Made by a program: the position numbers and the translations under genes. Below the pieces are notes generated by a model. It was not told the origin of the DNA. It searched no databases and was given only the letters and a program-made list of their open reading frames with translations. Below are positions 11,584-27,985 of a stretch of 36,729 nucleotides of DNA, in pieces (the stretch's first letter is position 1; the number at the start of each line of letters is the position of its first letter). The stretch comes from a virus. The DNA lies in IMG/VR virus record IMGVR_UViG_3300031521_000196, positions 1 through 36,729 of that record; one strand, written 5' to 3'.

Positions 11584-12441
11584 TTAAATCTTAACTTTTA
11601 CACCACCTTTTAGTGTTCTATTTGATGTATCAAAAACATAGAAGTTTTCAGGAAAATCTAAAGATTTTTCCATACTCATAAATAGTTCTTTTGCAGCATT
11701 TGAGTAGTTTATATCATCATCTGAGAAACCAATATGTAAAGGTAATTTTGTTCTTTTTGCAAAATCTCTAACATAGTTAGTGAATTTATTTATAGCATCT
11801 TGTTTACCTTGATTTGCTTTTGCGCCAGCTGGAAAATAATGGAATTCATCTTGAAAAGCTTTTGATGTAATTCCCATAAAATAACAATTATCCAAATATT
11901 GCTTAATAGTATCATTTGTTGGTAAATGAAACATATTATTAAAGCTTTGAAGATTTTTAATCATCTCATCTTTATCTTGTTTGGATAAAACATTATCAAT
12001 AATATATTGAACTGCAGAACGAATAGTTTGTGGTTCATGACCTCTTGTTGTTACAATTGCAAACAATCTACCTTTTTTCAATGTATCTAGAAATATATCC
12101 CAAGATGGACCAAACTTTTTATCATTTATAGCATTCTTAACATCTTCTACAAATGCATTATTTCCTCTTGGACCAAAATCCATAAATTCTATAAATGTTA
12201 CATTTTGTTCGCCTTTCCATTCAGAATTATCTAAATAATTGTCTGGATATTTCTTACGAATTTGAGCAAACTCGTGAGATGAAACTTTTACATTAACCCA
12301 TTTACCATTTTCAAAATGTTGAAAATGTATAGGAGTATTCATCATAAGCAAATTATCATCAACATCAAATATATAATACTTCAATGTTTTTACGTTGACA
12401 TATTCTAAAAGAAACTCGTTCCATTTTTTTACTTTACCCAT
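11584..12441 (-). CDS. HAD-superfamily phosphatase-like protein with a capsid-targeting-like N-terminus
   Basis: 285 residues. The HAD motifs can be placed: motif I YYIFDVDDNLL (DxDxN; nucleophile Asp near residue 25), motif II AIVTTRGHEP, a Lys-containing motif III region (AKANQGKQDAI), and motif IV HIGFSDDD. So it is probably a Mg2+-dependent phosphohydrolase, substrate unknown. The first residues MGKVKKWNEFLLEYVN resemble the start shared by five plus-strand proteins in this window and the capsid-targeting peptide of T4 internal proteins, including a possible cleavage point after LLE. Both a host-type and a phage-type promoter lie upstream, suggesting use at two stages. Confidence 0.72.
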   Translation of the reverse strand: MGKVKKWNEFLLEYVNVKTLKYYIFDVDDNLLMMNTPIHFQHFENGKWVNVKVSSHEFAQIRKKYPDNYLDNSEWKGEQNVTFIEFMDFGPRGNNAFVEDVKNAINDKKFGPSWDIFLDTLKKGRLFAIVTTRGHEPQTIRSAVQYIIDNVLSKQDKDEMIKNLQSFNNMFHLPTNDTIKQYLDNCYFMGITSKAFQDEFHYFPAGAKANQGKQDAINKFTNYVRDFAKRTKLPLHIGFSDDDINYSNAAKELFMSMEKSLDFPENFYVFDTSNRTLKGGVKVKI

Positions 12442-12465
12442 AATACTAAAATTATTTTATTAATG

Positions 12466-12475
12466 TATATATTAA
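12466..12475 (-). promoter_or_regulatory. Phage-type promoter motif before the HAD-like gene
   Basis: TTAATATATA on the minus strand, 24 bases before the ATG at 12441. Confidence 0.55.
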
Positions 12476-12500
12476 AATTTAATTTATTTTTTATTTGATG

Positions 12501-12529
12501 CAAAGTTACACATAATTATTATATATCAA
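12501..12529 (-). promoter_or_regulatory. Host-type promoter before the HAD-like gene
   Basis: Minus strand TTG (12529-12527), 18-base spacer, TAACTTTG (12508-12501). Fits TTG/TAnnTTTG, about 60 bases before the ATG. Confidence 0.55.
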
Positions 12530-12571
12530 CATAATAATAAGTTAAAAAACATTAATTGACATTATGTTCAA

Positions 12572-12626
12572 TAAAAAAGAGACTTTATTGCGAATGAACA
12601 CAAGGTTCAATTGAACAACAAAGTCT
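12572..12626 (-). terminator. Terminator with a structured loop after the 12649-12888 gene
   Basis: Minus-strand stem AGACTTTGTTG / CAATAAAGTCT (11 pairs, one G-U) closing a loop of 25 bases that itself can form GAAC/GTTC, then a run of six T. The loop is unusually large and structured for a plain terminator. Confidence 0.7.
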
Positions 12627-12648
12627 ATTTTTTATAATTAAATACCTG

Positions 12649-12888
12649 TTACATATCATCATAACACCATATTGGTGTCTTTTCACCAACATATGCACCC
12701 GAAACATTATAATCAAAATATTCCAATGCATCTTCTCCATCCATATCTTTCATTAATATTTCAAGACATTTTGTAACAGAATAAATTAATCTCATAGATT
12801 TCAAATCTACTCCAATAATAGCATCATCAAAACCATCAGCCTTTAAAAACTCATCATCTGCATAATTTTCTAAAATTCTTTCTAGCAT
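12649..12888 (-). CDS. Small acidic hypothetical protein, 79 aa
   Basis: Not recognised. 79 residues, acidic, with an N-terminal helix (MLERILENYADDEFL) and a possible second helix (SVTKCLEILMKDMDGEDALEYF), ending GEKTPIWCYDDM. No catalytic motif. It is the last gene of the operon that contains peptide deformylase and the small genes at 13.3-15.1 kb, and is followed by an elaborate terminator. Confidence 0.65.
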   Translation of the reverse strand: MLERILENYADDEFLKADGFDDAIIGVDLKSMRLIYSVTKCLEILMKDMDGEDALEYFDYNVSGAYVGEKTPIWCYDDM

Positions 12889-12905
12889 TCATTTTTTATT
12901 ATTTT

Positions 12906-13343
12906 TTAATCTATTATTAGTTTACCTTTGAGATGATCAAATTCGTGTTGAACTATAATAGCAATATCATCTTTATACTCTGCATATCTGAGTGTCCAAT
13001 TATTATCGTAAAATTTTACTTTAACTTTTTCACGTCTATTTACAGGAAAAGACAAACCTGGAAAACTTAAGCAGCCTTCTTTAATTTGGATATTTAAGCC
13101 GTCTAATTGAATTTCAGGATTTATAAAAACTTCTTGAAAATTTGATGTTTTTATTATAAAAAGATTTAGATTATGTCCAACTTGTGGTGCAGCTAATCCT
13201 ACACCAGAATTAGTTGATATTAGAGTCTCAAACATATCATTAATCAATTTAGTTAAAAATGGATTCTCTCTACTAACATCAACATTTTTTTGTCTTAATT
13301 TGACAGAATTTGGCTCACCATATTTAACAATATCTAATATCAT
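12906..13343 (-). CDS. def: Peptide deformylase
   Basis: A 145-residue metalloenzyme that removes the formyl group from the N-terminal Met of new proteins. All three family motifs are intact: GVGLAAPQVG (motif 1), EGCLSFPG (motif 2, with the metal-binding Cys) and QHEFDHLKG (motif 3, HExxH with two His ligands and catalytic Glu). It is shorter than most bacterial enzymes, ending just after motif 3, as is common for phage deformylases. In phages it is thought to sustain processing of the burst of new proteins. Its ATG overlaps the stop of the upstream gene. Confidence 0.95.
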   Translation of the reverse strand: MILDIVKYGEPNSVKLRQKNVDVSRENPFLTKLINDMFETLISTNSGVGLAAPQVGHNLNLFIIKTSNFQEVFINPEIQLDGLNIQIKEGCLSFPGLSFPVNRREKVKVKFYDNNWTLRYAEYKDDIAIIVQHEFDHLKGKLIID

Positions 13344-13564
13344 TTGTTTTTTCCGTGTTTTTTCTTTTTAGGCGCATCAATTGGCTCCACTTTTTTAACT
13401 TCTTCTGGTTTAACTTGTTCTTTATTTAAACCGAAAAATTCTTTATACTCTTTTCTTGAGCAGTGCTTCCAGCCGTAGTCAACTAACGCCTTAATTGCAA
13501 CAACATCATTTATTGTACTATCTGGCATCTTTTTAAAATCGTTATTTCTTCTTAAAATTTTCAT
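13340..13564 (-). CDS. Small basic hypothetical protein, 74 aa
   Basis: Not recognised. 74 residues, basic, with helix-forming stretches (NDVVAIKALVDYGWKHCSRKEYKEFF) and a Lys-rich tail (APKKKKHGKNK) that could bind nucleic acid or ribosomes. It is translationally coupled to peptide deformylase through an ATGA overlap; that pairing might point to a role at the ribosome exit, but it may be only gene packing. Confidence 0.65.
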   Translation of the reverse strand: MKILRRNNDFKKMPDSTINDVVAIKALVDYGWKHCSRKEYKEFFGLNKEQVKPEEVKKVEPIDAPKKKKHGKNK

Positions 13565-13638
13565 ATTTTTTTAATTTTTTTAATTTTTTCTTTCTTAATA
13601 TAATATTAGCTTCATCATAATAATAAATATATCCTATA

Positions 13639-13752
13639 CTATTTTTTTAATTCAATAAAACTGTTGATATCTCTATATGTTAAACAAAATTCAGAACTCA
13701 TATAATCTACATATAATTTAAATGCGATTTTATCCAATTCAGTTATAATCAT
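13639..13752 (-). CDS. Small coupled protein, 37 aa
   Basis: A short frame whose ATG (13752-13750) overlaps the TGA of the gene at 13749-14012 as ATGA, the same coupling seen at most junctions here. The product starts MIITELDKIAFKLYVDYMSS and ends in FIELKK; it is mostly one amphipathic helix. The neat stop-start overlap and lack of any other gene in this 180-base gap support it being real. Function unknown. Confidence 0.5.
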   Translation of the reverse strand: MIITELDKIAFKLYVDYMSSEFCLTYRDINSFIELKK

Positions 13753-14012
13753 AAAGTATTCAATTTTTCTAATTTTTGTTTTCTTGATATTTTTTCATAT
13801 TCTATTAATGTAGAGAATCTATCAGCATAAAATATACTTGATGCTATCAACACACCATCATTATTTATATGAACTGTTTCAACACCATATTCTTTATAAT
13901 ATGCTTCTACTGTATATACTCTACCAACTGTGAGAATATTAGAACAATCTAAATTATTCACACATACTATTTTATCACCATATTTCCAATTTTTATACTT
14001 ACTACTATACAT
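13749..14012 (-). CDS. Small paralogous protein A, 87 aa
   Basis: 87 residues, related to the protein at 14203-14463: both carry NWKxGDKIxCxNNL near the N-terminus, then LTxxxxYxVxxxxxEYGVxxV, and end in a helix of the form RKxKLEKLxxL. The first part looks like a small SH3-like beta barrel of the kind found in many short phage proteins; the tail is a charged helix. The two copies are separated by one other small gene. Function unknown. Confidence 0.7.
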   Translation of the reverse strand: MYSSKYKNWKYGDKIVCVNNLDCSNILTVGRVYTVEAYYKEYGVETVHINNDGVLIASSIFYADRFSTLIEYEKISRKQKLEKLNTL

Positions 14013-14030
14013 TCAAATTGTTTATAATTG

Positions 14031-14219
14031 TCAATTTTTGTTTTCTATTGTGTTTAATAAAAAGTTAACTAAATCATCAGTTTGATACATATTACCATCT
14101 TCTGTAAAATAAAGTGGTTCACCATCTTCTGCTCTTGAAAAACAATCACCAATATATTCATCAAAAATTTTTTTATATTCTATTTTATCAACTTCTGATA
14201 AACTATTCCATCTGCTCAT
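14031..14219 (-). CDS. Small acidic hypothetical protein, 62 aa
   Basis: Not recognised. 62 residues, acidic, rich in Asp/Glu and aromatic residues (SLSEVDKIEYKKIFDEYIGDCF; EPLYFTEDGNMYQTDDLVNFLL). Starts inside the end of the upstream gene (17-base overlap). Lies between the two paralogous small genes. Confidence 0.6.
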   Translation of the reverse strand: MSRWNSLSEVDKIEYKKIFDEYIGDCFSRAEDGEPLYFTEDGNMYQTDDLVNFLLNTIENKN

Positions 14220-14463
14220 ATAATTTTTCGACTTTTTCTAATTTTTCTTTTCTAATCATTTTTGGTGTTTTAAATCTCTTTGAAAACACTTCAATAAAAT
14301 AATAATCACCTATAAGTTGCACATTTGAAACACCATATTCTATGAAACAATCTAAAACATAATATTCTTTATCTATCGTTAAATCTGATTGCCTACCTAG
14401 ATTATTTATACATATAATTTTATCACCTTTCTTCCAATTTCTTGATTTATCCTTGTATCTCAT
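14203..14463 (-). CDS. Small paralogous protein B, 86 aa
   Basis: 86 residues, paralogue of the protein at 13749-14012 (NWKKGDKIICINNL; LTIDKEYYVLDCFIEYGVSNVQL; tail MIRKEKLEKVEKLYEQ). Predicted small beta barrel plus C-terminal charged helix. Overlaps both neighbours by 17 bases, showing tight coupling. The presence of two diverged copies in the same operon suggests local duplication. Confidence 0.7.
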   Translation of the reverse strand: MRYKDKSRNWKKGDKIICINNLGRQSDLTIDKEYYVLDCFIEYGVSNVQLIGDYYFIEVFSKRFKTPKMIRKEKLEKVEKLYEQME

Positions 14464-14701
14464 TTAATCTATTAAGTTTCTTTAATCTTTGTTCTTTTTT
14501 CATTTGTTTATACCAAAAACTATCATTATCAACAATTATAGATGATGTCTGCTGTAAAATATATGGTACAAAAATATATCCTTGTGAAAATGTTCCACCA
14601 CTTGTTTGTACTGACATAGGATAATTACTAATTTCATTCAAACTTCCATATACGTTTGATGATATATTTGCCAATGAATATCTAGATTTAAGAGTTTTCA
14701 A
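14447..14701 (-). CDS. Small hypothetical protein with the shared C-terminal helix, 84 aa
   Basis: 84 residues. The first 55 residues are Ser/Tyr rich and unlike its neighbours, with SVQTSGGTFSQGYIFVPYIL. The end (MKKEQRLKKLNRLNEIQG) has the same kind of charged helix as proteins A and B, so this helix may be a common module, for example for self-association or docking. Function unknown. Confidence 0.6.
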   Translation of the reverse strand: MKTLKSRYSLANISSNVYGSLNEISNYPMSVQTSGGTFSQGYIFVPYILQQTSSIIVDNDSFWYKQMKKEQRLKKLNRLNEIQG

Positions 14702-14706
14702 TTTAA

Positions 14707-14898
14707 TTATTTATTTTTCATATAATTATCATACCATGCATCATCTGATATATTTTCAAAAAATTTACTTTTTTGTTTTTCATATTCAAGTCTATAAGTT
14801 TCACAACAAGCAAAATCACCATCAGATGTTGCTAACACCATTTTTATTTCATTATCAAATGGATTTCTATTACAATTATCATTAACACACTTACACAT
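14707..14898 (-). CDS. Small Cys-rich hypothetical protein, 63 aa
   Basis: 63 residues with five Cys: MCKCVNDNC at the start and CC near residue 31. The pattern (CxC-x4-C ... CC) could bind zinc. The rest is charged and helical (YRLEYEKQKSKFF). Part of the small-gene operon; no function recognised. Confidence 0.6.
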   Translation of the reverse strand: MCKCVNDNCNRNPFDNEIKMVLATSDGDFACCETYRLEYEKQKSKFFENISDDAWYDNYMKNK

Positions 14899-14902
14899 AG
14901 AG

Positions 14903-15109
14903 TTATTTATCTTTAAAATAGTTTATTGCTGATTTCCTTAATGCGTTTTCATTACCGTTTGAATCTCTAAGTAGATAGAGTCCAGATTTTGTTTTTTTAA
15001 CTATAGTTAAAACTTCATCATTTTTATATCCTCGCCACGGTTGACACATTCTCAAATCACCATTAAAATTAATTGTGGTTTCTTTACCAATATAATCTTC
15101 ATCACTCAT
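14903..15109 (-). CDS. Small SH3-like hypothetical protein, 68 aa
   Basis: 68 residues with alternating strands (GKETTINFNGDLRMCQPW; DEVLTIVKKTKSGLYLLRDS) that fit a small beta barrel, and a basic tail. Overlaps the upstream gene's end by 8 bases. Function unknown. Confidence 0.6.
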   Translation of the reverse strand: MSDEDYIGKETTINFNGDLRMCQPWRGYKNDEVLTIVKKTKSGLYLLRDSNGNENALRKSAINYFKDK

Positions 15110-15620
15110 AACTCTGCAAATTTTTTAATTTTAAATATCTTATATCATTTTTAGAAAAAATTTCGAGGTTTGTTTGATTAATTACATAAGAAAATAATTT
15201 ATTTTTCATTAAATCATTTCTTTTTTCAACAGGTATAGATTTGATTAAATTTTCAACATCTTCTATTTCTTCTTTTGTGTTATATCTTTTAGCTATTTTA
15301 ATGCCAACTGTTTTCTTATTATATTCCAGTGCCATAAATGTACCATGTGACTTTTCACCATAAATATTTGTATAAACAATTGGTAAACAACCTTCAAATA
15401 ATTTATCAAATTCCCATGCAAAATGACAAACGAAGTCTTCAAGAACGACATCTAAAAAATCATCGCCAGTATAATCATTCAATTGTCTTTTTATAAAATC
15501 ATTCTTAAACCATTCTGATGCATCTACACCAGATTCAATTGATATAGTATCAATTGCTTTAAGTTGTTTTTCAACTTTCCAATTTATCCAATCCTTAAAA
15601 TATTTTTCAAAACTTTCCAT
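15102..15620 (-). CDS. Hypothetical protein, 172 aa, first gene of the small-gene operon
   Basis: Not recognised. I place the start at the ATG at 15620 (MESFEKYFKDWINWKVEKQL), not at an upstream in-frame ATG at 15668, because a good host-type promoter (15676-15646) would start transcription near 15639, after the upstream ATG. The protein is 172 residues, mixed alpha/beta, with a helix-rich first half and KKTVGIKIAKRYNTKEE in the middle. It heads the operon of small genes running down to about 12.6 kb. Confidence 0.7.
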   Translation of the reverse strand: MESFEKYFKDWINWKVEKQLKAIDTISIESGVDASEWFKNDFIKRQLNDYTGDDFLDVVLEDFVCHFAWEFDKLFEGCLPIVYTNIYGEKSHGTFMALEYNKKTVGIKIAKRYNTKEEIEDVENLIKSIPVEKRNDLMKNKLFSYVINQTNLEIFSKNDIRYLKLKNLQSYE

Positions 15621-15645
15621 ATGATGACTTTTAAATATTAATCGG

Positions 15646-15676
15646 CAAATATAAGGAAAAATTTTCAATTGAGCAA
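15646..15676 (-). promoter_or_regulatory. Host-type promoter of the small-gene operon
   Basis: Minus strand TTG (15676-15674), 20-base spacer, TATATTTG (15653-15646). Same spacing as the clpP promoter. It decides the start of the gene at 15102-15620 and lies right after a terminator. Confidence 0.75.
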
Positions 15677-15683
15677 ATAATTA

Positions 15684-15713
15684 ATAAAAAAAGGGTATCT
15701 AAAAGATACCCTT
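15684..15713 (-). terminator. Intrinsic terminator after the small ORF/RNA at 15716
   Basis: AAGGGTATCT / AGATACCCTT stem with a 3-base loop followed by a T-run on the minus strand. Confidence 0.85.
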
Positions 15714-15715
15714 AT

Positions 15716-15781
15716 CTAACAACCGTTAGAACAATGCGTAACTGGACGCAGAAAAAAATGAATTGCTACATATTTTCTCAT
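15716..15781 (-). CDS. 21-aa mini-ORF or small RNA between its own promoter and terminator
   Basis: A minus-strand unit of about 110 bases with a TTAATATATA element (15808-15799), an ATG 17 bases later, a 21-codon frame (starts MRKYVAIHFFLRP, contains two Cys, ends NGC) and a stop just before an intrinsic terminator. The same RNA can form a GCGT/ACGC hairpin near 15744. It could be a tiny peptide gene or a small RNA; the neat promoter-ATG spacing favours a transcript, but not necessarily translation. Confidence 0.45.
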   Translation of the reverse strand: MRKYVAIHFFLRPVTHCSNGC

Positions 15782-15798
15782 ATTATCAATTTTTATTG

Positions 15799-15820
15799 TA
15801 TATATTAAAATTAATATATA
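15799..15820. promoter_or_regulatory. Back-to-back phage-type promoter motifs
   Basis: Two copies of TTAATATATA point away from each other, separated by AA: 15808-15799 on the minus strand (toward the mini-ORF) and 15811-15820 on the plus strand (toward the gene at 15839). This symmetric arrangement at a divergent junction supports a promoter role. Confidence 0.6.
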
Positions 15821-15838
15821 TAAGAAAAAATTACTAAA

Positions 15839-16213
15839 ATGAATATTAAAAAATTTGATGATTATGAATATGTCAATGAAAACATCCTTAATGATGATGA
15901 TGATAATATAGAAAACAAATGGGAAGTAAGAATAGATGATGCAACAGAATCATTCTGGGAATATAAACATGATGCTATTGATCAGATACTTGAAATATTA
16001 GACACAGAAGGTGACGAAAATGGTTTAGATGGCTATAAAGATGATGATATTGATTATGAAATGTCAAAAAGCGAAATCGCTGACATTTTAGATGTTATGG
16101 ACGAAGATGAGTTTTATGATAAACTTGATGAGCTTAAAGAGTTTGTTGGATATGAAAAAGACATCAAATTAGTCAACATTGCTGATGAAGATGAATTAGA
16201 ATTTCTTGATTAA
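15839..16213 (+). CDS. Highly acidic protein with a capsid-targeting-like N-terminus, 124 aa
   Basis: 124 residues, extremely acidic (many Asp/Glu runs). It begins MNIKKFDDYEYVNENIL, a variant of the MKxxKxFExF start found in five other proteins here. No known domain; it could be largely disordered apart from helices around residues 75-105 (MSKSEIADILDVMDEDEFYDKL). A phage-type promoter lies 18 bases upstream. If the N-terminus is a capsid-targeting signal, this would be an acidic internal head protein. Its stop overlaps the stop of the convergent gene. Confidence 0.7.
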   Translation: MNIKKFDDYEYVNENILNDDDDNIENKWEVRIDDATESFWEYKHDAIDQILEILDTEGDENGLDGYKDDDIDYEMSKSEIADILDVMDEDEFYDKLDELKEFVGYEKDIKLVNIADEDELEFLD

Positions 16214-17368: not shown

Positions 17369-17370
17369 AA

Positions 17371-17688: not shown

Positions 17689-17705
17689 AATTTAATTTTT
17701 TTTAT

Positions 17706-17746
17706 AAAGGCATTCGCTTTATTTCTAATTATCTGCGAATGCCTTA
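17706..17746. other. Long hairpin in the leader of the 17371-17688 gene
   Basis: AAGGCATTCGC / GCGAATGCCTT, 11 perfect pairs around a 17-base loop. T-rich on the plus-strand side only, where there is no upstream plus-strand gene to terminate. So it is either a terminator for an unseen plus transcript or a leader structure on the minus-strand mRNA. Confidence 0.6.
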
Positions 17747-17850
17747 TTTTTAATAATCTGGCTTTTTTGGCTTTATCTAATGTTGATTATCTAGAGTATT
17801 ATATTACTCATTTTTATATATGGTATTATTATAAAAAAGTTTTTTAAAAA

Positions 17851-17860
17851 TTAATATATA
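17851..17860 (+). promoter_or_regulatory. Phage-type promoter motif before the 17866 gene
   Basis: TTAATATATA only 5 bases before the ATG, so a transcript started here would have almost no leader. Confidence 0.5.
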
Positions 17861-17865
17861 ATATC

Positions 17866-18141
17866 ATGAAAAATGTTAAAACTTTTGAAAGCTTTTTTAA
17901 AAAAAAATATGAGCTTGGTGATTATGTTATTTTTAAAGCATATAAAAAGAATGTATTATTAAAAGGTAAAATAATATCAACATTTTCAAGAGGTGATCAA
18001 TTTCTCATTCGAACCATCGAATTTGGTGAAAATCCAGAACTAGAACTATGGACAATATCATCTAAAATTAAACGCAAATTAAACGCAAAAGAGATGGAAG
18101 AAGTGAAATTTGTAGAAGATTCAAAAAAATATAATTTATGA
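17866..18141 (+). CDS. Small protein with capsid-targeting-like N-terminus, 91 aa
   Basis: 91 residues. The start MKNVKTFESFFKKKYELGD is one of the clearest versions of the shared MKxxKxFExF peptide. The remainder (YVIFKAYKKNVLLKGKIIST and FLIRTIEFGENPELELWTI) resembles a small SH3-like barrel with a basic C-terminal helix. Its stop overlaps the ATG of the next gene (ATGA), which has the same kind of N-terminus. Function unknown; a packaged internal protein is a hypothesis. Confidence 0.7.
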   Translation: MKNVKTFESFFKKKYELGDYVIFKAYKKNVLLKGKIISTFSRGDQFLIRTIEFGENPELELWTISSKIKRKLNAKEMEEVKFVEDSKKYNL

Positions 18142-18770
18142 AACATTTAAACTTATTTGAAAACATTATTATAGATGATATGGAAGTAATCGCAACTAAC
18201 AAATCTTACTATAGTTGGGAATATGATAGTCATACGACAACTGCACAAATTTTATTAGATAGAAAAGATGATTCATTATATCTTAAAATTAGAACCGTTC
18301 ATAACAAAAGTGGATTAGGTGCGGGATCATATCCTAAGGACTTAGAATTTGTAAAAATTGGCACAACACAAAAAGCAGATTTACAATTAGTTAAAAAACT
18401 ATTAGTTAAACATAAACAATCACATAAGAACTTTTCTAATCATTGGGAAGACGAAGAAGGAAATAAGATGTTATTATCTGAAGTTATAGCAGAATATAAG
18501 CCAGCAAAGGAAATTTTACCAAAAAAAGAATTAAAGCATATTCAATCAATATCAAATTTTGATATGCCAAAAAAATCAGAAATTGAAATTGTAAAATATT
18601 CAGACCGCTCTTATGCAATTTTTGGTGACGAAACTAGAAAGATAAAAGATAAACTAATAGAATTAGGATGCAAATATAATCGTTTTCTTACTGATCCTAA
18701 ATCTGGCGAAAAACGACCAGGCTGGATATGCTCTATCAGTAAAATAGATTTGGTTAAAAAATTATTATAA
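18138..18770 (+). CDS. Protein with capsid-targeting-like N-terminus and a phage 'GDxTRxIKDKLxELG' domain, 210 aa
   Basis: 210 residues. N-terminus MKHLNLFENIIIDDMEV fits the shared peptide. The C-terminal 70 residues (KYSDRSYAIFGDETRKIKDKL, then LGCKYNRFL and RPGWICSISKIDLVKKLL) match a short domain that I know from viral and phage proteins, often next to topoisomerase or nucleic-acid enzymes ('...IFGDTKxxKDxLKxLGGKFNxxL...GWIFS...'). Its function there is unclear. The middle has a long helix with YKPAKEILPKKELKHI. Translationally coupled to the 17866 gene; convergent with and overlapping the epimerase gene by 6 bases. Confidence 0.7.
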   Translation: MKHLNLFENIIIDDMEVIATNKSYYSWEYDSHTTTAQILLDRKDDSLYLKIRTVHNKSGLGAGSYPKDLEFVKIGTTQKADLQLVKKLLVKHKQSHKNFSNHWEDEEGNKMLLSEVIAEYKPAKEILPKKELKHIQSISNFDMPKKSEIEIVKYSDRSYAIFGDETRKIKDKLIELGCKYNRFLTDPKSGEKRPGWICSISKIDLVKKLL

Positions 18771-19736: not shown

Positions 19737-20525
19737 TTACATCTCAAATTTTCTAACTAAATCGCCAGATTTTACAATATAAATTCCGTGTTTTAATTCA
19801 CTCAAATCAACAGAGCAATTATTCAATATCGCACGTTTAACTAATAAGCCAGTTGTGTTGTATATTTTAATTTCATTTGTTGTAGAGTTTAAAACTTCAA
19901 GTCTATTACCAATAAGTTTCACATCTAAAGTGTAAGTAGGTGTAGATAATCCAGTGGTTTTTTCTCCAAAAAACATTTTATCCCAATACACAACAGCAGG
20001 TGTTTTATATGTTCTAAATTGAAAACTGAATGAATTATATCCTGTTGCTGGTGCTGTAACTTCGCAAGTATAATCTTTCCATACTCCTTTCACATCAGGA
20101 AAATATGCAGAACCACCACCAGGTCCCATAAGTAATACCGAATCTGCATGTGATAAAGCAGCATAAGTTGTTGTAGTACCAACATTACACCAATCAGACC
20201 ATATTCTTGCATCAGTACCATCACCTGTTTCAATATAGTAGCTCATTTTAACTGTATAAGTCTTACCTGCTGTAATTGGCACTATTTGTGAAACGATATA
20301 AGTTCCACCAGCTGTTGCCGCTGCAGTGACTTTAAAAGATTTCGCACCATCATTAAATATTGAAGTGCTTTCAGTTGCTGTTGCAAATGTTGCTGTACCT
20401 AGAGTCCAACCATCGGGTGCACCTGCTGTCCAAGTTTCAAAACCAGGATTTACAAGTAAATTTGTTTGTGCATTAACGAAGAATACACTTAAGATAAAAA
20501 AAAGAGAAAGTAAAAGTTTTTTCAT
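19737..20525 (-). CDS. Secreted protein with a type IX secretion (T9SS) C-terminal sorting domain
   Basis: 262 residues. Residues 1-19 are a Sec signal peptide (MKKLLLSLFFILSVFFVNAQ, cut after VNA). The middle is a beta-rich domain starting NLLVNPGFETWTAGAPDGW, as in carbohydrate-binding-type domains of Flavobacteria. The last 65 residues (EIKIYNTTGLLVKRAI, then VDLSELKHGIYIVKSGDLVRKFEM) match the type A sorting domain that sends proteins out through the T9SS of Bacteroidetes. It is richer in G+C than its neighbours (25 of 60 bases at 20101-20160), consistent with recent capture from a host. The product would be exported to the host surface or medium. Confidence 0.88.
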   Translation of the reverse strand: MKKLLLSLFFILSVFFVNAQTNLLVNPGFETWTAGAPDGWTLGTATFATATESTSIFNDGAKSFKVTAAATAGGTYIVSQIVPITAGKTYTVKMSYYIETGDGTDARIWSDWCNVGTTTTYAALSHADSVLLMGPGGGSAYFPDVKGVWKDYTCEVTAPATGYNSFSFQFRTYKTPAVVYWDKMFFGEKTTGLSTPTYTLDVKLIGNRLEVLNSTTNEIKIYNTTGLLVKRAILNNCSVDLSELKHGIYIVKSGDLVRKFEM

Positions 20526-21619: not shown

Positions 21620-21621
21620 AT

Positions 21622-21692: not shown

Positions 21693-21700
21693 TTTTTATT

Positions 21701-21736
21701 AAAATCCGATGTATTTAATTATATATCGGATTTTTA
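21701..21736. terminator. Hairpin/terminator right of the RNA element
   Basis: AAAATCCGAT / ATCGGATTTT stem with a 14-base A/T loop, T-run on the plus side. Ends just before the promoter motif of the nuclease-like gene. Confidence 0.8.
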
Positions 21737-21748
21737 TATATACATTTG
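21733..21748 (+). promoter_or_regulatory. Promoter motifs before the nuclease-like gene
   Basis: TTTATATATA (21733-21742) overlaps a host-type -7 element TACATTTG (21741-21748); the ATG is at 21765. No TTG at the host -33 distance. Confidence 0.5.
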
Positions 21749-21764
21749 CAAAATAATTATTAGT

Positions 21765-22574
21765 ATGAAAACTTATGAAAACTTTTTAAACACACTAAAA
21801 GAAAAAGAAATGATAAAAGACTTTGAATGGATAGATGAATCTGGCTCAAAAGTAAATATACATATTGACTCCGTATATTTAACAAAGGTTGGTGATTTAA
21901 TCTTTGATTATGTGAACGCAACTTATGGTAAGTTTGGTGTTATATATGGTCAGAAGAATACAATATTTAAAATTGGCGATAAAACTTATAATTCAGAATA
22001 TATTACAAAATTTGTAAATAATATAAAAATGTATACTGAAACTATGAGAAGAGAAAATATAAAAGATGGTGAAGCTTTTGTAGATTATATCAAAAATCAC
22101 TTAATGGATATGTTTCATTATTTTGGTAAACATTTTTCAAATAATTACAGAATAGTCACAAACACTTCAAATAAAGGTCATCGTGGAGAAAACGCAAGCT
22201 TAAAATATTTTAGTGAACTTATATATACAGACTTTAACAAAGATATACAAATTGCTCTACCAGCTAGTATAAGAGCTGATATCGATGGTGTAGATGGTAC
22301 ATTTTTATGGGATGGAGTACCATTCACAATCCAAGTAAAACCATTCACAAGTTATGTTGTTGAAGATGATAAAATAGAAGTTTTCACTAATGGTGCACTG
22401 AAGCTTAATGCACACTATTTAATCTTATATAAGGAAAAATTATCTAATAAATATGATATTATAGTTTTGAAAAATGGAAAAAACAAAGATAAAATATCTT
22501 ATAGCAATTCTAGTTTTCATACAGAAATGATAAATGTGTATAAAATTGAAACTGACGTTTTAATCAAATTATAA
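21765..22574 (+). CDS. Putative PD-(D/E)XK nuclease with a capsid-targeting-like N-terminus
   Basis: 269 residues. The N-terminus MKTYENFLNTLKEKEM is strikingly like the capsid-targeting sequence of T4 internal proteins (MKTYQEFIAE). The middle has a PD-(D/E)XK-like core: E142 in KGHRGENASLKYF (helix), D174/D177 in DIDGVDGTFLWDG, then IQVKPF with Q190 and K192 in the place of the (D/E)xK motif. Such a fold suggests a nuclease, or a protein that binds DNA ends. A late-type promoter motif and this N-terminus together suggest a protein packaged in the head and delivered with the DNA. Function is a hypothesis; the fold assignment is moderately sure. Confidence 0.62.
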   Translation: MKTYENFLNTLKEKEMIKDFEWIDESGSKVNIHIDSVYLTKVGDLIFDYVNATYGKFGVIYGQKNTIFKIGDKTYNSEYITKFVNNIKMYTETMRRENIKDGEAFVDYIKNHLMDMFHYFGKHFSNNYRIVTNTSNKGHRGENASLKYFSELIYTDFNKDIQIALPASIRADIDGVDGTFLWDGVPFTIQVKPFTSYVVEDDKIEVFTNGALKLNAHYLILYKEKLSNKYDIIVLKNGKNKDKISYSNSSFHTEMINVYKIETDVLIKL

Positions 22575-22576
22575 AA

Positions 22577-22609
22577 AAACACCTCTTATTTAAGAGGTGT
22601 TTCTTTTTT
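22577..22609. terminator. Bidirectional terminator
   Basis: AAACACCTCTTA / TAAGAGGTGTTT stem with a 2-base loop, followed by a T-run on the plus side. The end of the convergent minus-strand gene (stop at 22586) lies within the stem. Confidence 0.85.
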
Positions 22610-23011
22610 AAACTTTTTCAATCGTTTAATATCTTCTCGCAATTTTTCATCGTAAAACTTAATTAAAAAATCAATATCACTATCTTTTATTTGATAATAT
22701 TCTTTTATTAATTTTAAATCATTATTATTAAAATCAGACTTAATTTTAACTTTAGATTTTTGATTTGTTTTCCACCACCAATCTGGTGTACCATTTGTTG
22801 GTTTATAAAAAATTTGAAACCATAAATCTAAAGCCGATGATCTGTTTACATTTTTAAAATTAAAAAATTGTGCTTTTTTTATATCTTTAAATGCAAATTT
22901 TTGATTCAACTTAAAGAAACAATTTTCTTTTTCTTCATCTGAAACATATTTATATTTGTCTTTATCCTTAAATATAATATTAGCGAGTGTTATAAAATCT
23001 ACTTTTGCCAT
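22586..23011 (-). CDS. Hypothetical protein, possibly clamp-loader-small-subunit-like, 141 aa
   Basis: 141 residues, helical and basic. The pattern CFFKLNQKFAFKDIKKAQFFNF, then NVNRSSALDLWFQIFYK and PDWWWK recalls the small helical clamp-loader subunit (gp62-like) of T4-related phages, where an 'N..' helix and a conserved DLW precede an aromatic-Pro/Trp segment; I recall this only loosely. The C-terminus is a Lys-rich helix (DIKRLKKFKKETPLK). It overlaps the end of the histidine kinase gene by 13 bases, so it is expressed with it. Treat the clamp-loader idea as low confidence. Confidence 0.55.
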   Translation of the reverse strand: MAKVDFITLANIIFKDKDKYKYVSDEEKENCFFKLNQKFAFKDIKKAQFFNFKNVNRSSALDLWFQIFYKPTNGTPDWWWKTNQKSKVKIKSDFNNNDLKLIKEYYQIKDSDIDFLIKFYDEKLREDIKRLKKFKKETPLK

Positions 23012-24957
23012 ATATCTTTTAATATTGTTATTAATTTGTCCTTTTTTATTGGTTTTTTTAAATGATAATCAACCAAATCACTTTTTTGATTATCTATACC
23101 TGATTTAGAAATAATTTTACAATCATCACAAACCATTTTTAATGTTCGTATTAAATCATAGCTTTTTATTCCAAATAAGTTTAAATCTACTATTATTAGA
23201 TCTATTTTTTCTTTTTGTTTTTTATATATTTCAATAGCTTCATCGCCGCCATTCGCTGTAATCATATTAATATTCATAGAATTTAAATATATACCTAATA
23301 TTGAATATGTTACTGGGATATCATCTATTACTAAAATTGTCTTTTCTGAAAAATCAACATCATCTGCTTCAACATTTTTAACAACTTCCTCTATTGGTAA
23401 TTTAACATAAAATGATGTACCTCTATGTAATTTTGATCTTAACCAAATTTCACCATTCAATATTTCAACAATACTTTTAGATATTGACAAACCCAATCCA
23501 GTACCTTTATATTTCTTTCTACTACCACTATCTGCTTGCCAAAATCTATCAAATACATATTTTATTTTATCATCTTCAATTCCAATTCCAGTATCTTCAA
23601 TTTTAAATGTTATATAATTATTATCTAATGTATAAGATATTTTAATATAACCTTTCTCTGTAAATTTAATAGAGTTACTAATTATATTATATAAAACTTG
23701 TTTCACTCTTAAATAGTCAGATACAATTTTAGTATCATCACCTTTTATAAATTCCATTTTTACGAAATTTAAATTTTTACCATAATTAACTTCATTAAAT
23801 ATATCATGCAATTCGTCAAATAAATCTAAAATTGAAAATTGTTCATAAAGAATATCCAATGCCTCACTTTCTATTTTAGAATAATCTAATATGTTGTTTA
23901 GTAATTCATCTAAGTGTTTTGCATTTGAATTTATTGATTTTATAAATCTTTCAGATCCTTTGTTTTTATTATTTGATAATAATATATCAGAAAATCCAAT
24001 GATTGCTGTCATTGGTGTTCTCAATTCATGCGAAATATTTGATAAAAATATAGATTTTATTGAATTGCTTTTTTCCAATGCATCTTCATTCTCTTTTTGT
24101 ATTGTTATATCTTGAAGTACACCAAACACAATTTTATTTTTACTATCGTAACTTGCGACAGAATGTATAGTTTTGATTTTATTATTTATTTTAATTTTAT
24201 ATTCTACATTATAATGTTTATTATATTCAATCAAATTTTTCATTGCATCATCCATCATTGGTCTAAACTCAGATAACACTACAACTTTAACATTCGGATA
24301 AGTTATAATATCATCATACATCTCATATATCTTTCTCGCACCATCAGATACTATTAATAAATCAGTGTCAACATACAATTCCCAATTTCCTGTTTTTGAT
24401 ATTATTTCAGCTCTAGCTAATCTGTTTTCTGATTTTATCAACTCATCAGAACGTTTACCCTTTTCTTCGTTAGCAATAATCAACTCATCAGAACGTTTAC
24501 ACTTTTCTTCGTTAGCAATAATCAACTCATCAGAACGTTTACCCTTTTCTTCATTTTGAAAAGTTAATTCATGTTCTAAATTCTTGTGAATATTTATTCT
24601 ATCTGTAATGTTAGTAAATATTGCTATAAATTCAATATCATCCCAATATGCAAGACTAACACCAAAATATTTATTTATATTATTATGATAAAATTCAAAA
24701 TATTTTGAATTTTTATTTAAAACTACATCAGAATATATATCTAATGATAATACATCACCATATAACTCTGATGCTAGTTTACCTTCAGCATAATCTTTTG
24801 TGTAACCTAATATCATTTCAAATCCTTTATTAACTTTTAAAACAATATAGTCAATTGGATTACCACTATCATCAAATACCATTTGATGAATTGCAACACC
24901 TTCTAATATGTTAGAAAGTAGATTGTCAAAATATGAATTATTTTGTGAATTTGACAT
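22999..24957 (-). CDS. Soluble hybrid histidine kinase with PAS domains and receiver
   Basis: 652 residues. Order: PAS domain (about 10-120), a coiled-coil linker with three 14-residue repeats (135-174), a second PAS-like domain (about 180-290), HisKA with the phospho-accepting H310 in SNISHELRTPM, HATPase with N box NIISNSIKFT, G1 DTGIGI, F box YVFDRFW and G2 GTGLGLSI, then a receiver (about 540-652) with acidic pair VIDD, acceptor D591 in IVDLNL and conserved K635 in LKKP. All catalytic motifs look intact. No transmembrane segment, so it would sense an intracellular signal. The linker resembles those of Bacteroidetes kinases. No separate response regulator is seen nearby. Complete sensor kinases are very rare in phages. 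Confidence 0.93.
   Translation of the reverse strand: MSNSQNNSYFDNLLSNILEGVAIHQMVFDDSGNPIDYIVLKVNKGFEMILGYTKDYAEGKLASELYGDVLSLDIYSDVVLNKNSKYFEFYHNNINKYFGVSLAYWDDIEFIAIFTNITDRINIHKNLEHELTFQNEEKGKRSDELIIANEEKCKRSDELIIANEEKGKRSDELIKSENRLARAEIISKTGNWELYVDTDLLIVSDGARKIYEMYDDIITYPNVKVVVLSEFRPMMDDAMKNLIEYNKHYNVEYKIKINNKIKTIHSVASYDSKNKIVFGVLQDITIQKENEDALEKSNSIKSIFLSNISHELRTPMTAIIGFSDILLSNNKNKGSERFIKSINSNAKHLDELLNNILDYSKIESEALDILYEQFSILDLFDELHDIFNEVNYGKNLNFVKMEFIKGDDTKIVSDYLRVKQVLYNIISNSIKFTEKGYIKISYTLDNNYITFKIEDTGIGIEDDKIKYVFDRFWQADSGSRKKYKGTGLGLSISKSIVEILNGEIWLRSKLHRGTSFYVKLPIEEVVKNVEADDVDFSEKTILVIDDIPVTYSILGIYLNSMNINMITANGGDEAIEIYKKQKEKIDLIIVDLNLFGIKSYDLIRTLKMVCDDCKIISKSGIDNQKSDLVDYHLKKPIKKDKLITILKDIWQK
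24436..24555 (-). repeat. 42-bp tandem repeat in the histidine kinase linker
   Basis: Almost three copies of a 42-base unit encoding NEEKGKRSDELIIA (second copy C for G). Near identity at the DNA level implies recent expansion. The register of 14 residues (two heptads) extends the signalling coiled coil without changing its phase. Confidence 0.9.
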
Positions 24958-24961
24958 AAAC

Positions 24962-24971
24962 TATATATAAA
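24962..24971 (-). promoter_or_regulatory. Phage-type promoter motif before the histidine kinase
   Basis: TTTATATATA on the minus strand, 4 bases before the ATG at 24957; it lies directly next to the stop of the thymidine kinase gene. Confidence 0.45.
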
Positions 24972-25553
24972 TTAATTGTTTTTCAATTTCTTATAGCATT
25001 TTCTACACAAAGGTTTATATGTATCATTTCCACCTATTTGTATTTGTTCACCTTGAGAAACTATTTTACCATCCAAAAATTTAGCATTTATAATCGCTTT
25101 TTTATTTTTGCAACAATTACAAATTGTTTTAATCTCTTCAATAGAATCAGCTAAAGACATCAAATTTTCAGAACCAGAAAAAGGATTTAACATAAAATCA
25201 GAACGTAAACCATAACATATTACTGGAATATCTAATTCATCAACAATATCTGCTAATTGAAAAATGTGTTTTTTATTTAAAAATTGCACTTCATCAACAA
25301 ATATACAAGACACATCTGACTCTTGATTACTATTTTTCACAATTTCTAAAATATCAGTGTCAGCATAAACAGGTATTGCATCAACAGATAATCCGATTCT
25401 AGATGTTATTTTACCTATACCATATCTATTATCAATAGCTGAAGTAAAACATAATGTTTTTTTGTCATTCTCAATATAATTATAATTTGTTCTAATTAAA
25501 TCTATACTTTTTCCAGCGTTCATCGTGGAATATCTAAAATAGAGTTTTGCCAT
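24972..25553 (-). CDS. tdk: Thymidine kinase
   Basis: 193 residues of the type II thymidine kinase family, phosphorylating thymidine to dTMP for phage DNA synthesis. Seen: Walker A-type YSTMNAGKSIDLIRTN, Walker B-type IFVDEVQFL, the conserved YGLRSDF segment, the lid, and a zinc site from a CNCC pair (near residue 145) and CRKCYKK at the end. The C-terminal substrate loop TYKPLC is close to the usual 'Y.p.CR.C'. Full family length. It lies just upstream of the histidine kinase in the same direction. Confidence 0.95.
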   Translation of the reverse strand: MAKLYFRYSTMNAGKSIDLIRTNYNYIENDKKTLCFTSAIDNRYGIGKITSRIGLSVDAIPVYADTDILEIVKNSNQESDVSCIFVDEVQFLNKKHIFQLADIVDELDIPVICYGLRSDFMLNPFSGSENLMSLADSIEEIKTICNCCKNKKAIINAKFLDGKIVSQGEQIQIGGNDTYKPLCRKCYKKLKNN

Positions 25554-25641
25554 TTTTATAAATAATTTTTTATTTCTATAAAATTAAATATCTGATTAAT
25601 AGACAATTAAAAATAAATAGAATTATTTGAAGTATTAAAAA

Positions 25642-25651
25642 TTAATATATA
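25642..25651 (+). promoter_or_regulatory. Phage-type promoter motif before the 25749 gene
   Basis: TTAATATATA, 97 bases upstream of the ATG at 25749. A GTG 5 bases after the motif opens a 45-codon frame (25657-25794) that overlaps the gene; I do not call it. Confidence 0.45.
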
Positions 25652-25748
25652 TTATTGTGAAAAATACTTCTGATTATATATCATTTTTTTTAATAAAGGT
25701 TGAATATTCAGCTTTTAAATTACAAACAAAAAATAAATCTTTAATTTT

Positions 25749-25961
25749 ATGGAACAAATTAGAAAATCTGACAGTACACTGTCTTGGAAATTGATTTGGG
25801 ATGCAGATACAAAAGATGTATTGCTTCTTAAAAAAATTAATGGAGATTTCGAAACTATCAACGAACTCTTTGAAACAAAAAATAAAAACGATATTTATAA
25901 AAAAATTAATGAGCTTGGCTTAAAATATGAACCTGAAATTCTTGAAGAAGAATGGATGTAA
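25749..25961 (+). CDS. Small hypothetical protein, 70 aa
   Basis: Not recognised. 70 residues, acidic/basic mixed, beginning MEQIRKSDSTLSWKLIWDAD, with a strand pair and a helix (NDIYKKINELGLKYEPEIL). Ends in a bidirectional terminator shared with the convergent gene. No motif. Confidence 0.6.
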   Translation: MEQIRKSDSTLSWKLIWDADTKDVLLLKKINGDFETINELFETKNKNDIYKKINELGLKYEPEILEEEWM

Positions 25962-25962
25962 T

Positions 25963-25997
25963 AAAAAATACCACTGATTATTCAGTGGTATTTTTTT
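25963..25997. terminator. Bidirectional terminator
   Basis: AAAAAATACCACTG / CAGTGGTATTTTTT stem with a 6-base loop between convergent genes. The minus-strand gene's final codons are inside it. Confidence 0.85.
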
Positions 25998-26562
25998 GTC
26001 TTTGTAATAAATCATATATTACAAAAGCGTGTCCCATGCTTTTTTTTGTATTATTAGCAACATCAGATAACGTCATTCCTTTTTCTTTATGATTATATCC
26101 ATCAAAATCAACTAAATATATATCTTTTTCTGTTTCTCTATAAATATTTAGAAGTTTTTTAAATGCATCAGATTTCAAAACAGCACGACTATATAATGGT
26201 ATATAAATTTTTTTTCTTGCTTCAACATAGTCTAATTTTTGTCCATCCCAATATGAAAATAACGGTTTAGCACCTCTACCCATTGGATATCTATATACAT
26301 ATGATGATGACCATATTTTTTGTGCCCATTTAAAATACTCATCTGTTGGATTGTTTTCATCATCAACAAATTGTGAATAGCACTTAGATGCCTGATAGGC
26401 GTTCTCTACACTCTTTGCATAATAATTACCATATAAATGTCCAGCTTGCAATATAAATGGTGAAAAACCTCTTGTCCAACTTCCAGACCTTGATGTTGTA
26501 TCTATCACTATAGAATCTTCTGGTAACTTAAATCTATTTTTATATGCTTCTACGTATAACAT
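25978..26562 (-). CDS. Conserved phage protein of unknown function, 194 aa
   Basis: 194 residues. The segment TTSRSGSWTRGFSPFILQAGHLYG, then AKSVENAYQASKCYSQF and YRYPMGRGAKPLFSYWDGQKLDYVEARKKIYIPLY fits a family I have seen in phages and bacteria with the pattern '..S.SPF.LGP...Y......NVENAWQ.SKVY....'; no function is agreed. The conserved Arg/Ser/Trp near residues 25-35 and Arg-rich YRYPMGRG could form an active site, possibly nucleotide-binding. It is followed by a strong terminator. Confidence 0.7.
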   Translation of the reverse strand: MLYVEAYKNRFKLPEDSIVIDTTSRSGSWTRGFSPFILQAGHLYGNYYAKSVENAYQASKCYSQFVDDENNPTDEYFKWAQKIWSSSYVYRYPMGRGAKPLFSYWDGQKLDYVEARKKIYIPLYSRAVLKSDAFKKLLNIYRETEKDIYLVDFDGYNHKEKGMTLSDVANNTKKSMGHAFVIYDLLQRQKNTTE

Positions 26563-26572
26563 TATTTAAAAG

Positions 26573-27016
26573 TTAATTATTAAATAATGATGCAATTTGT
26601 TTTGCCTTTTCTAAGGTTGATAGATTTGAATTTTCCAATGCTTTTATTGTATTATATGCACGATATTCATTTTCATCAAAATTTTTATTTCCAGTTTCTG
26701 TCAAATATTCTATTTTTAATTTAATATTTTCGATATTATTTTTAGCAGCACTCATTTCTTTTTCTGCTATTTTCAATTCTTCGTTAATATCTTCAATATT
26801 ATTATTATATAATCTAACATCAGATAAGGCTAGATAATAATTATTGGTGGTGGTAAGCATATTAGAATCTGAATATGTCACATATACTCCTCCAACTGAA
26901 TTAGTTATCTGATAATATTGTGATAGTATTACCTTAGTTCCTATTGGAATATGTGAGTTAGTAGAATCTGACACTACTATTAATTTTGTTCCTGGTTGTA
27001 AATTTGTTTTTATCAT
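26573..27016 (-). CDS. Hypothetical coiled-coil protein, 147 aa
   Basis: I take the ATG at 27016 (MIKTNLQPGTKLIVVSD), since the frame upstream translates a low-complexity tandem repeat (27031-27054) that looks regulatory. The first 70 residues form a beta-rich, SH3-like region (GTKVILSQYYQ; GVYVTYSDS). Residues about 75-120 form a coiled coil (EDINEELKIAEKEMSAAKNNIENIKLKIEYL). Ends with LEKAKQIASLFNN. Function unknown. Confidence 0.65.
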   Translation of the reverse strand: MIKTNLQPGTKLIVVSDSTNSHIPIGTKVILSQYYQITNSVGGVYVTYSDSNMLTTTNNYYLALSDVRLYNNNIEDINEELKIAEKEMSAAKNNIENIKLKIEYLTETGNKNFDENEYRAYNTIKALENSNLSTLEKAKQIASLFNN

Positions 27017-27030
27017 TTTTCTATATTTTA

Positions 27031-27054
27031 TTTTATAATATATTTTATAATATA
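27031..27054. repeat. Two tandem 12-bp repeats in the leader of the 26573 gene
   Basis: TTTTATAATATA twice in direct order, 15-38 bases upstream of the preferred ATG. Possibly part of its promoter. Confidence 0.55.
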
Positions 27055-27088
27055 TTTGGTTTTTTGTACACATACCTTTAGTTTATTT

Positions 27089-27364
27089 TTATTTAAAAGT
27101 TAATTTGTCTTTATTTTTAATAGCTTTGTTTAGAAGGAATTTTATAATATCATTAAATTTTACTTTTTTCTCTTTACATAATTCCACACTTTCTTTAAAT
27201 GTTTCATCATCTATATCCAACAAAATTATATGATCACTATTAGAATATGACGTAATAAAATAACGAATAACTTCACTCATAGTTTTATTTTTATTATCAC
27301 ATGCTTTTTGAAATTCTTCATACTCATCTTCATTCACCCTTAACTTTAAGAATGCTTTTTTCAT
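27089..27364 (-). CDS. Tandem ribbon-helix-helix protein, 91 aa
   Basis: 91 residues that read as two ribbon-helix-helix units in one chain: KAFLKLRVNEDEYEEFQKAC..TMSEVIRYFITSY and HIILLDIDDETFKESVELC..KFNDIIKFLLNKAI. A fused pair could fold as a pseudo-dimer on DNA. Its ATG overlaps the stop of a tiny basic gene upstream. Likely a transcriptional repressor; target unknown. Confidence 0.65.
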   Translation of the reverse strand: MKKAFLKLRVNEDEYEEFQKACDNKNKTMSEVIRYFITSYSNSDHIILLDIDDETFKESVELCKEKKVKFNDIIKFLLNKAIKNKDKLTFK

Positions 27365-27483
27365 TGCAAATCAAGTTTATGTTTTTTTAATAACTCTGTA
27401 TTTTTAGCAAATCTTTTTAATTTTTTTAGAGCATTTCTACGATTTATACCGCTTTTCAATATTGTTTTTTTAGCTTTACCCAT
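27361..27483 (-). CDS. Tiny basic protein, 40 aa
   Basis: 40 residues, strongly basic, starting MGKAKKTILKSGINRRNALK and continuing as a Lys/Arg-rich helix. The stop overlaps the next ATG (ATGA), indicating coupling. Composition suggests nucleic-acid or ribosome binding. Upstream, TTTATATATT on the minus strand (near 27506-27515) resembles the phage-type promoter motif and lies back-to-back with that of the 27545 gene. Confidence 0.6.
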   Translation of the reverse strand: MGKAKKTILKSGINRRNALKKLKRFAKNTELLKKHKLDLQ

Positions 27484-27530
27484 GATATTTAATTTATTTT
27501 TATAAATATATAAAAAATAACAATAAAAGT

Positions 27531-27540
27531 TTTATATATA
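27531..27540 (+). promoter_or_regulatory. Phage-type promoter motif before the 27545 gene
   Basis: TTTATATATA, 4 bases before the ATG at 27545. Confidence 0.5.
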
Positions 27541-27544
27541 TGAT

Positions 27545-27985
27545 ATGAAAAATATTAAATCTTTTGAATCTTGGAAAAATAATATTATAGATGATACACT
27601 ATTTACTAGTGGTAAAGCTAAATATAACCCAAAAATACAAGCAGGTGCTATAAAATACAAAACAGGTAATATTGAACCATATTATTTTGCAAAAATTGAA
27701 AAACGAGGTAATAAATTTATATGCAAAATATATGAAAAAAATAGTAGTGGTAAAGTTATCAGACTTAGAAATAAATTAAAAAATGATTTGAAAACTTCAC
27801 ATAATTATGTCAGAGAATTTCTTAATCAAAAATTAAAAAGAAAATCTAAACCAAAAAAACATAAAGAAGAAGATATTGAAAGAATCATTAGACAAGAGCC
27901 AGAAAGAAGAAATCTAATGGAACCGCAATTTCCACCAATGGAATATGAACCACCTAAAAGTAAAACTATAATAAGAAGATACTAA
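27545..27985 (+). CDS. Basic protein with a capsid-targeting-like N-terminus, 146 aa
   Basis: 146 residues, strongly basic. N-terminus MKNIKSFESWKNNIIDD fits the shared MKxxKxFExF peptide. A strand-rich middle (EPYYFAKIEKRGNKFICKIYEKNSSGKVIRLR) is followed by a Lys/Arg-rich stretch (QKLKRKSKPKKHKEEDIERII) and a Pro-rich acidic/basic end (EPQFPPMEYEPPKSKTIIRRY). It could bind packaged DNA, as expected for an internal head protein, but no family is recognised. Confidence 0.68.
   Translation: MKNIKSFESWKNNIIDDTLFTSGKAKYNPKIQAGAIKYKTGNIEPYYFAKIEKRGNKFICKIYEKNSSGKVIRLRNKLKNDLKTSHNYVREFLNQKLKRKSKPKKHKEEDIERIIRQEPERRNLMEPQFPPMEYEPPKSKTIIRRY

Follow-up and report, generated by a model that had tools for sequence, protein, structure and literature searches.

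A common N-terminal peptide on six window proteins

IMG/VR virus record IMGVR_UViG_3300031521_000196 (positions 1 to 36,729, here called the window) is an entire viral contig of 36.7 kb with 25% G+C. In a first-pass annotation, six of its otherwise unrelated proteins were noted to begin alike, with a short peptide, here called the tag. Reading the genes from 12441(-), 15839, 17866, 18138, 21765 and 27545 confirmed the shared peptide on all six (Table 1). Conserved window genes match five very large uncultured phages, the complete relatives LR756501 (735 kb), LR745206 (634.8 kb), LR756502 (642 kb), LR756504 (636 kb) and LR756500 (462 kb), referred to below as the huge phages. Closer relatives in IMG/VR, with about 70–80% protein identity, are all fragments.

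Table 1. Tagged genes, tags and promoter-like elements of the window (p, shuffle test)
Feature	Position	Strand	Remarks
Tagged HAD-like phosphatase (predicted), 285 aa	11584..12441	-	HAD-type motifs
Tag MGKVKKWNEFLLE of HAD-like gene	12403..12441	-	Presumed cut after E13; p=0.0005
Promoter-like element TTAATATATA of HAD-like gene	12466..12475	-	
Promoter-like element TTAATATATA of 15839 gene	15811..15820	+	
Tagged acidic protein, 124 aa	15839..16213	+	
Tag MNIKKFDDYEYVNE	15839..15880	+	Presumed cut before NILND; p=0.0025
Element TTAATATATA	17851..17860	+	5 nt before ATG of 17866; unit shared by 17866 and 18138
Tagged protein, 91 aa	17866..18141	+	
Tag-like N-terminus MKNVKTFESF	17866..17895	+	Weak alone; p=0.051; subtype as in LR756502
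Tagged protein, 210 aa	18138..18770	+	Same transcription unit as 17866
Tag-like N-terminus MKHLNLFE	18138..18161	+	Weak alone; p=0.02
Promoter-like element TTTATATATA of 21765 gene	21733..21742	+	
Tagged PD-(D/E)XK-like protein (predicted), 269 aa	21765..22574	+	Sequence motifs
Tag MKTYENFLNTLKE	21765..21803	+	p=0.0025
Element TTTATATATA	27531..27540	+	4 nt before ATG of 27545
Tagged basic protein, 146 aa	27545..27985	+	
Tag-like N-terminus MKNIKSFESW	27545..27574	+	Weak alone; conservation continues beyond it; p=0.048
Untagged gene, conserved in all five huge phages	29982..30629	-	Same promoter element at 30648-30657(-)
Untagged conserved large gene	32532..34451	-	Same promoter element at 34473-34482(-)

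Chance similarity was assessed with a profile trained on other phages only, using shuffles of residues 2–16 as the control. All six tags fell within the top 11 of 58 by profile rank. Those of the HAD-like protein, 15839 and 21765 are individually strong, whereas those of 17866, 18138 and 27545 are weak alone and less certain. The weak three fit the form MK-x-[LI]-K-x-F-E-x-F, a subtype with many members in LR756502 and LR745206, and their tags are retained in orthologues. Residues suited to processing are clear in the HAD-like protein and 15839, plausible in 21765 and 18138, and not clear in 17866 and 27545.

Orthologues of the HAD-like protein are tagged in L242, L254-L256, LR745206, LR756502 and LR756501 (two); that of LR756504 is tagless and begins at the catalytic motif. 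The tag of 15839 corresponds to MNLKKFKDFNYINE and MSIKKFNEYNQINE in orthologues. For 21765, the LR745206 orthologue is tagged and starts MKKFTEYIKES, and the L242 orthologue starts at the body. The 17866 protein is probably a small SH3-like barrel; its L242 orthologue retains MKHIKTFE, and by eye its GDxVI-like body looks similar to some tagged proteins in LR756501 and L259. The L242 orthologue of 18138 is 74% identical (MKHLNLFENTFSEN). Orthologues of 27545 in L242, L244, L245, L246 and L259 retain K[ST/K]FE[ST]W-like starts. A tandem duplication of a divergent pair equivalent to window 15102(-)/15839(+) was observed at L242 4548-8428.

The first-pass annotation had named a HAD phosphatase and a PD-(D/E)XK-like nuclease among the tagged proteins. 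The motifs are present and conserved in orthologues: DxDDN, TTRGHEP and GFSDDD largely so across seven orthologues of the HAD-like protein, and E142, D177 and QVK190-192 in three orthologues of 21765. Both labels are predictions from these motifs. The HAD-like protein gave no Pfam match above the cut-off, and a profile search of solved structures with its family returned nothing useful. AlphaFold models of the two proteins (pLDDT 42 and 47) were too poor for use, so that the nuclease assignment gained no confirmation from structure.

The tag in whole huge-phage genomes

Genes of the five huge phages were called with a simple caller of our own, on which the start codons depend, and protein families were clustered at BLAST level. 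An expectation-maximization motif search lacked positional constraint and drifted to composition bias, and was replaced by a positional test. The patterns [FYW]xx[FYW] and [FYW]xx[FYW]xxE peaked sharply within residues 4–8, with background levels further in. The aromatic peak lay chiefly at residues 7/10, and at 5/8 in LR756501; [LIVM]xE[SANGD] peaked at E11 (106 versus 24.5).

The first-pass annotation had proposed searching related phages for the N-terminal profile. With a tag profile of eight columns and a 5% false-discovery setting, this search returned about 318 tagged proteins compared with 15.6 expected. Per-genome counts were 95, 63, 77, 44 and 39, with about 2–4 expected in each.

When each family was reduced to one representative, the consensus columns [IL]-K-x-[YF]-x-x-F-[EIL]-[NS]-E-[SA] appeared in fixed register. 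Since the selection profile did not include the [IL] and K columns, these support the tag independently. The aromatics (columns 0 and +3) carry 3.2 and 3.7 bits and the glutamate 1.35; the position directly after it carries 0.44 and those that follow 0.1, so that conservation ends directly after the presumed cut. I, L or V occupies +4 in 53% of families and E occupies +6 in 55%, and one subtype has FE/S (the slash marking the presumed cut). Tags are about 8–14 residues long.

Clustering of the tagged bodies gave about 260 unrelated families, of which 182 have a single member. In whole alignments of 45–70 unrelated tagged proteins the consensus was almost confined to the tag, and a control alignment of 93 untagged proteins showed no consensus. 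One family of 47 members (ISDKL..L..I...IA..LL...YID; 17 tagged and 30 untagged) was observed in LR756501, LR745206, LR756502 and LR756504, with no convincing Pfam or PHROG function.

Promoter element and expression class

The element TTWATATATA occurs 15 times in the window, versus twice for the reversed control. It had been credited with leading five of the tagged genes or their operons, and a copy stands ahead of each of the five transcription units to which the six genes belong. Among other window leaders it is found before 6 of 27 (p=0.0023). The same element stands before two untagged conserved genes (29982..30629 and 32532..34451), whose products are likely virion proteins.

In the huge phages, ATATATA lies within 55–60 nt of the tagged leaders in 40/41, 33/33, 38/40, 28/36 and 10/13 cases. 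At the level of transcription units the motif accompanies 279 of 318 tagged genes versus 1143 of 3774 untagged genes; within families having both kinds, the counts are 56/64 and 38/84. It was found at 16 of 17 capsid, portal, protease and sheath genes (17/17 after one mis-called start was corrected), and at 3 of 14 genes for ribonucleotide reductase, DnaB and DNA ligase. ATATATA is thus a candidate late promoter, and its sharing suggests that tagged genes are expressed together with head genes. The element is often merely 4–5 nt 5' of the ATG (17851-17866, 27531-27545 and many tagged genes of LR756502, LR745206 and LR756501); with ATATATA starting near -15, almost leaderless transcripts are predicted.

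Cargo and modularity

In the HAD-like, RNA ligase, CCA-adding and Nudix enzymes the tag behaves as a prefix that can be detached, the tagless orthologues beginning at the enzyme domain. Families of RNA ligase, CCA-adding enzyme, Nudix and 2H phosphoesterase each have tagged and tagless members. Pfam matches in tagged proteins include RNA_lig_T4_1, PolyA_pol, NUDIX, PNK3P, DHH, RNase_T, PPK2, radical SAM, methyltransferases and leucine-rich repeats, together with 2_5_RNA_ligase2/Acb1 in three phages. Untagged controls were richer in housekeeping proteins (EF-G, DnaJ, adenylate kinase, helicases), yet they too had RNA ligase and Nudix members.

Enzymes do carry the tag. Nevertheless, random placement on clearly cytoplasmic enzymes, which the first-pass annotation had regarded as contrary evidence, was not seen, because the tag is detachable, follows the head-gene promoter and is absent from every ribonucleotide reductase, DnaB helicase and DNA ligase.

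Head genes and the T4 capsid-targeting sequence

In each of the five huge phages a gp21-type S77 domain adjoins a gp23-type capsid gene. One of the five S77 matches was above the Pfam cut-off; the LR745206 protein, the one tested, matched the PHROG head maturation protease phrog_207 with E=2.7e-30. The S77 domain lies within a protein of 632–807 aa (LR756501 73913-76336, LR756502 225272-227371 and counterparts), the extra part of which may be a scaffold. The capsid-protein arms have a conserved xxE/N site upstream of the part that matches the mature arm of T4 in alignment, and this would be a cut site; the tag of 15839 ends in the same manner (xNE/N). Small proteins at LR745206 93266, LR756502 80294 and LR756502 542908 possess a stretch similar to the capsid arm (GMGxVxxxQPxxLxGT), and the first two are also tagged.

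A profile trained on huge phages only, without T4, scored gp61.1, IPII and IPIII as the top three among T4 proteins. Mutagenesis of the IPIII peptide showed that residues 4 and 7 target and residues 8 and 10 process (PMC9026906). These four residues are columns 0, +3, +4 and +6 of the huge-phage tag, in which equivalents of both Tyr4/Phe7 and Ile8/Glu10 are present. The resemblance to MKTYQEFIAE, the T4 capsid-targeting sequence, that was proposed in the first-pass annotation is therefore supported by the T4 profile scores, the mutagenesis columns, the S77 and gp23 genes and the shared promoter, and its capsid-targeting interpretation is supported at the level of sequence.

Interpretation and alternatives

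What the genomes show directly is the tag itself: it keeps its register, ends at the presumed cut, behaves as a module and goes together with the promoter element and with T4-type head genes. We consider it highly probable that the peptide is a T4-type capsid-targeting sequence, with packaging, S77 cutting and likely injection of the cargo. Tagged proteins would be expressed from the promoter class of the head genes, and docking to the prohead core through the two aromatics (i, i+3) would lead to their enclosure as the shell forms. The gp21-type (S77) protease of the phage would cut after the glutamate at the tag end ([IL]xE/[SAN]) and free the mature protein, which would stay with the packaged DNA and most likely enter the host with it.

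Several points weigh against this interpretation. Packaging, cleavage and injection, like the purpose of the cargo, are deduced from sequence alone. The end from E to S, A or N is missing from some tags (E in 55% at +6 and 31% at +4), three of the six window tags are weak taken singly, and part of one tag subtype of LR756502 and LR745206 belongs to a single expanded family. No head genes (capsid, protease) were detected in the window or in the nearest contigs, all of which are fragments. Lak-A1, which has a related capsid protein, showed no tag enrichment in a 150-kb sample, and neither did RaK2, which has S77; the head type therefore does not imply tags.

The tag might instead lead to the prohead core or shell, its bearers serving head assembly or remaining in the capsid undelivered. 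In T4, gp21 also acts on core and scaffold proteins (PMC5694885), and the tagged proteins at LR745206 93266 and LR756502 80294 resemble the capsid-protein arm. Many cargos, however, are enzymes for which no part in assembly is obvious (RNA ligase, CCA-adding, 2H phosphoesterase, Nudix, PPK2, methyltransferases), and the tagged cargo varies among phages, like the T4 internal proteins; we regard retention in the head as unlikely. A peptide addressing some other phage-made or cellular site, such as a membrane or replication body, would also suit the many tagged enzymes, and localisation peptides can look alike. That such a site, unrelated to capsids, is the destination appears very unlikely given the exact match to the functional residues of T4, the terminal glutamate followed by a small residue, the co-occurrence of the tag with S77 and gp23 and the promoter common with head genes. 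Moreover phiKZ, which builds a nucleus, gave no S77 family match and showed no tag enrichment.

Likeness through gene duplication, spread of a DNA cassette or composition bias at start codons, rather than through selection on the peptide, is the least probable of the explanations. It does describe one set of small proteins (MKHLKxYKIFES...DILLDLxDDG), with 45 paralogues in LR756502 and 23 in LR745206, in which N-terminal codon identity is raised (0.67 versus 0.51 expected in LR756502). In the other tag subtype codon identity is near neutral, and the roughly 260 body families and the residue-shuffle and internal-position controls speak for the peptide. Duplication as a general source was rejected for most tags by body clustering and accepted for part of the one subtype. 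Within the window, the low single scores of 17866, 18138 and 27545, and for 27545 conservation that continues for about 30 residues, would fit a chance likeness or native N-termini, leaving the HAD-like protein, 15839 and 21765 as the only true tags. All three nevertheless have the promoter element, their tag residues are retained in orthologues and LR756502 and LR745206 have many examples of the MK-x-[IL]-K-x-FE form, so that this restriction to three is possible, though doubtful.

Capsid targeting of the tagged proteins suggests that the relatives bring a large kit of proteins into the cell along with their DNA, RNA-repair and probable counter-defence enzymes among them. The anti-defence role of the cargo is suggested by family names. 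We lean slightly towards the view that the largest phages carry dozens of packaged enzymes (RNA ligase, CCA-adding, 2H/Acb1-like, Nudix, HAD-like) as a first-strike kit, for RNA repair and clearance of defence signals before phage expression. If so, a ten-residue prefix and a late promoter would be enough to recruit any gene to the kit, and a ten-residue peptide proven in T4 would now serve dozens of proteins as a general loading code. Most genes of uncultured huge phages are functionally unassigned, and the tag would permit the proteins that these phages probably package to be listed from sequence alone. It would also be a source of candidate counter-defence proteins active at entry, and of natural tags for loading proteins into phage heads.

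Other features of the window

A secreted-looking protein at 19737-20525 (-) has a signal peptide and a C-terminal tail resembling a type IX sorting signal, suggestive of a host from the Bacteroidota. By sequence motifs, 22999-24957 (-) is predicted to encode a hybrid histidine kinase with a receiver domain; it is conserved in L242 and LR756501 and is unusual for a phage. An RNA ligase gene at 4304-6337 (-) is in two parts (5975-6337 and 4304-5017) separated by a GIY-YIG-like gene at 4995-5927, and the LR756501 homologue (342 aa) covers both. The split is probably due to a mobile intron or homing insertion; Rfam gave no intron match at this locus. The product of 30665-31399 (-) has an Intein/Hint-like C-terminal domain (weak Pfam Intein_splicing match, E=0.00027), and its counterparts in relatives have a length of only about 100 aa. 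Rfam and tRNA scans of the window gave no match, and DNA polymerase A had no match in the five huge phages.

Comparison with known systems

The published sizes of the Mahaphage clade (634, 636, 642 and 735 kb) are shared by four of the five complete relatives (PMC7162821), and Mahaphage hosts are predicted as Bacteroidetes (Al-Shayeb et al. 2020, PMC7162821). No earlier report of a capsid-targeting peptide in this clade was found among the literature searched, in which an exact-letter search for the T4 peptide also gave no match; the peptide is present here in the complete relatives.

In SPN3US and phiKZ many head proteins are packed with the DNA and cut after Glu, and their propeptides are mostly longer than 100 residues (PMC5694885). 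Packing and the cut after Glu would be alike in the huge phages, but the long propeptides differ from the short motif; the tags have about 8–14 residues and accompany gp23/S77 heads rather than heads of the phiKZ type. KVP40 and P-SSM2 have a few tags each.

The closest likeness is to T4, in which IPI, IPII, IPIII and Alt likewise possess an N-terminal peptide of about ten residues with aromatics at i and i+3, a hydrophobic residue at i+4 and Glu at i+6. The internal proteins of T-even phages have been characterised as a diverse set of defence proteins with only the targeting peptide in common, and IPI* is injected and blocks a restriction enzyme (PMC3012670). The likeness concerns a detachable peptide on unrelated proteins, beside a gp21-type protease and a gp23 head, and no homology of the bodies is claimed. 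The T4 protease has 212 residues, whereas the product of the huge-phage protease gene has about 630–810, and the predicted hosts of the huge phages are Bacteroidetes. T4 tags a handful of proteins, whereas the huge phages tag about 40–95 per genome, many of them enzymes, in several sub-registers. These comparisons support the view that in some of the largest known phages a T4-type targeting code has expanded far beyond T4.

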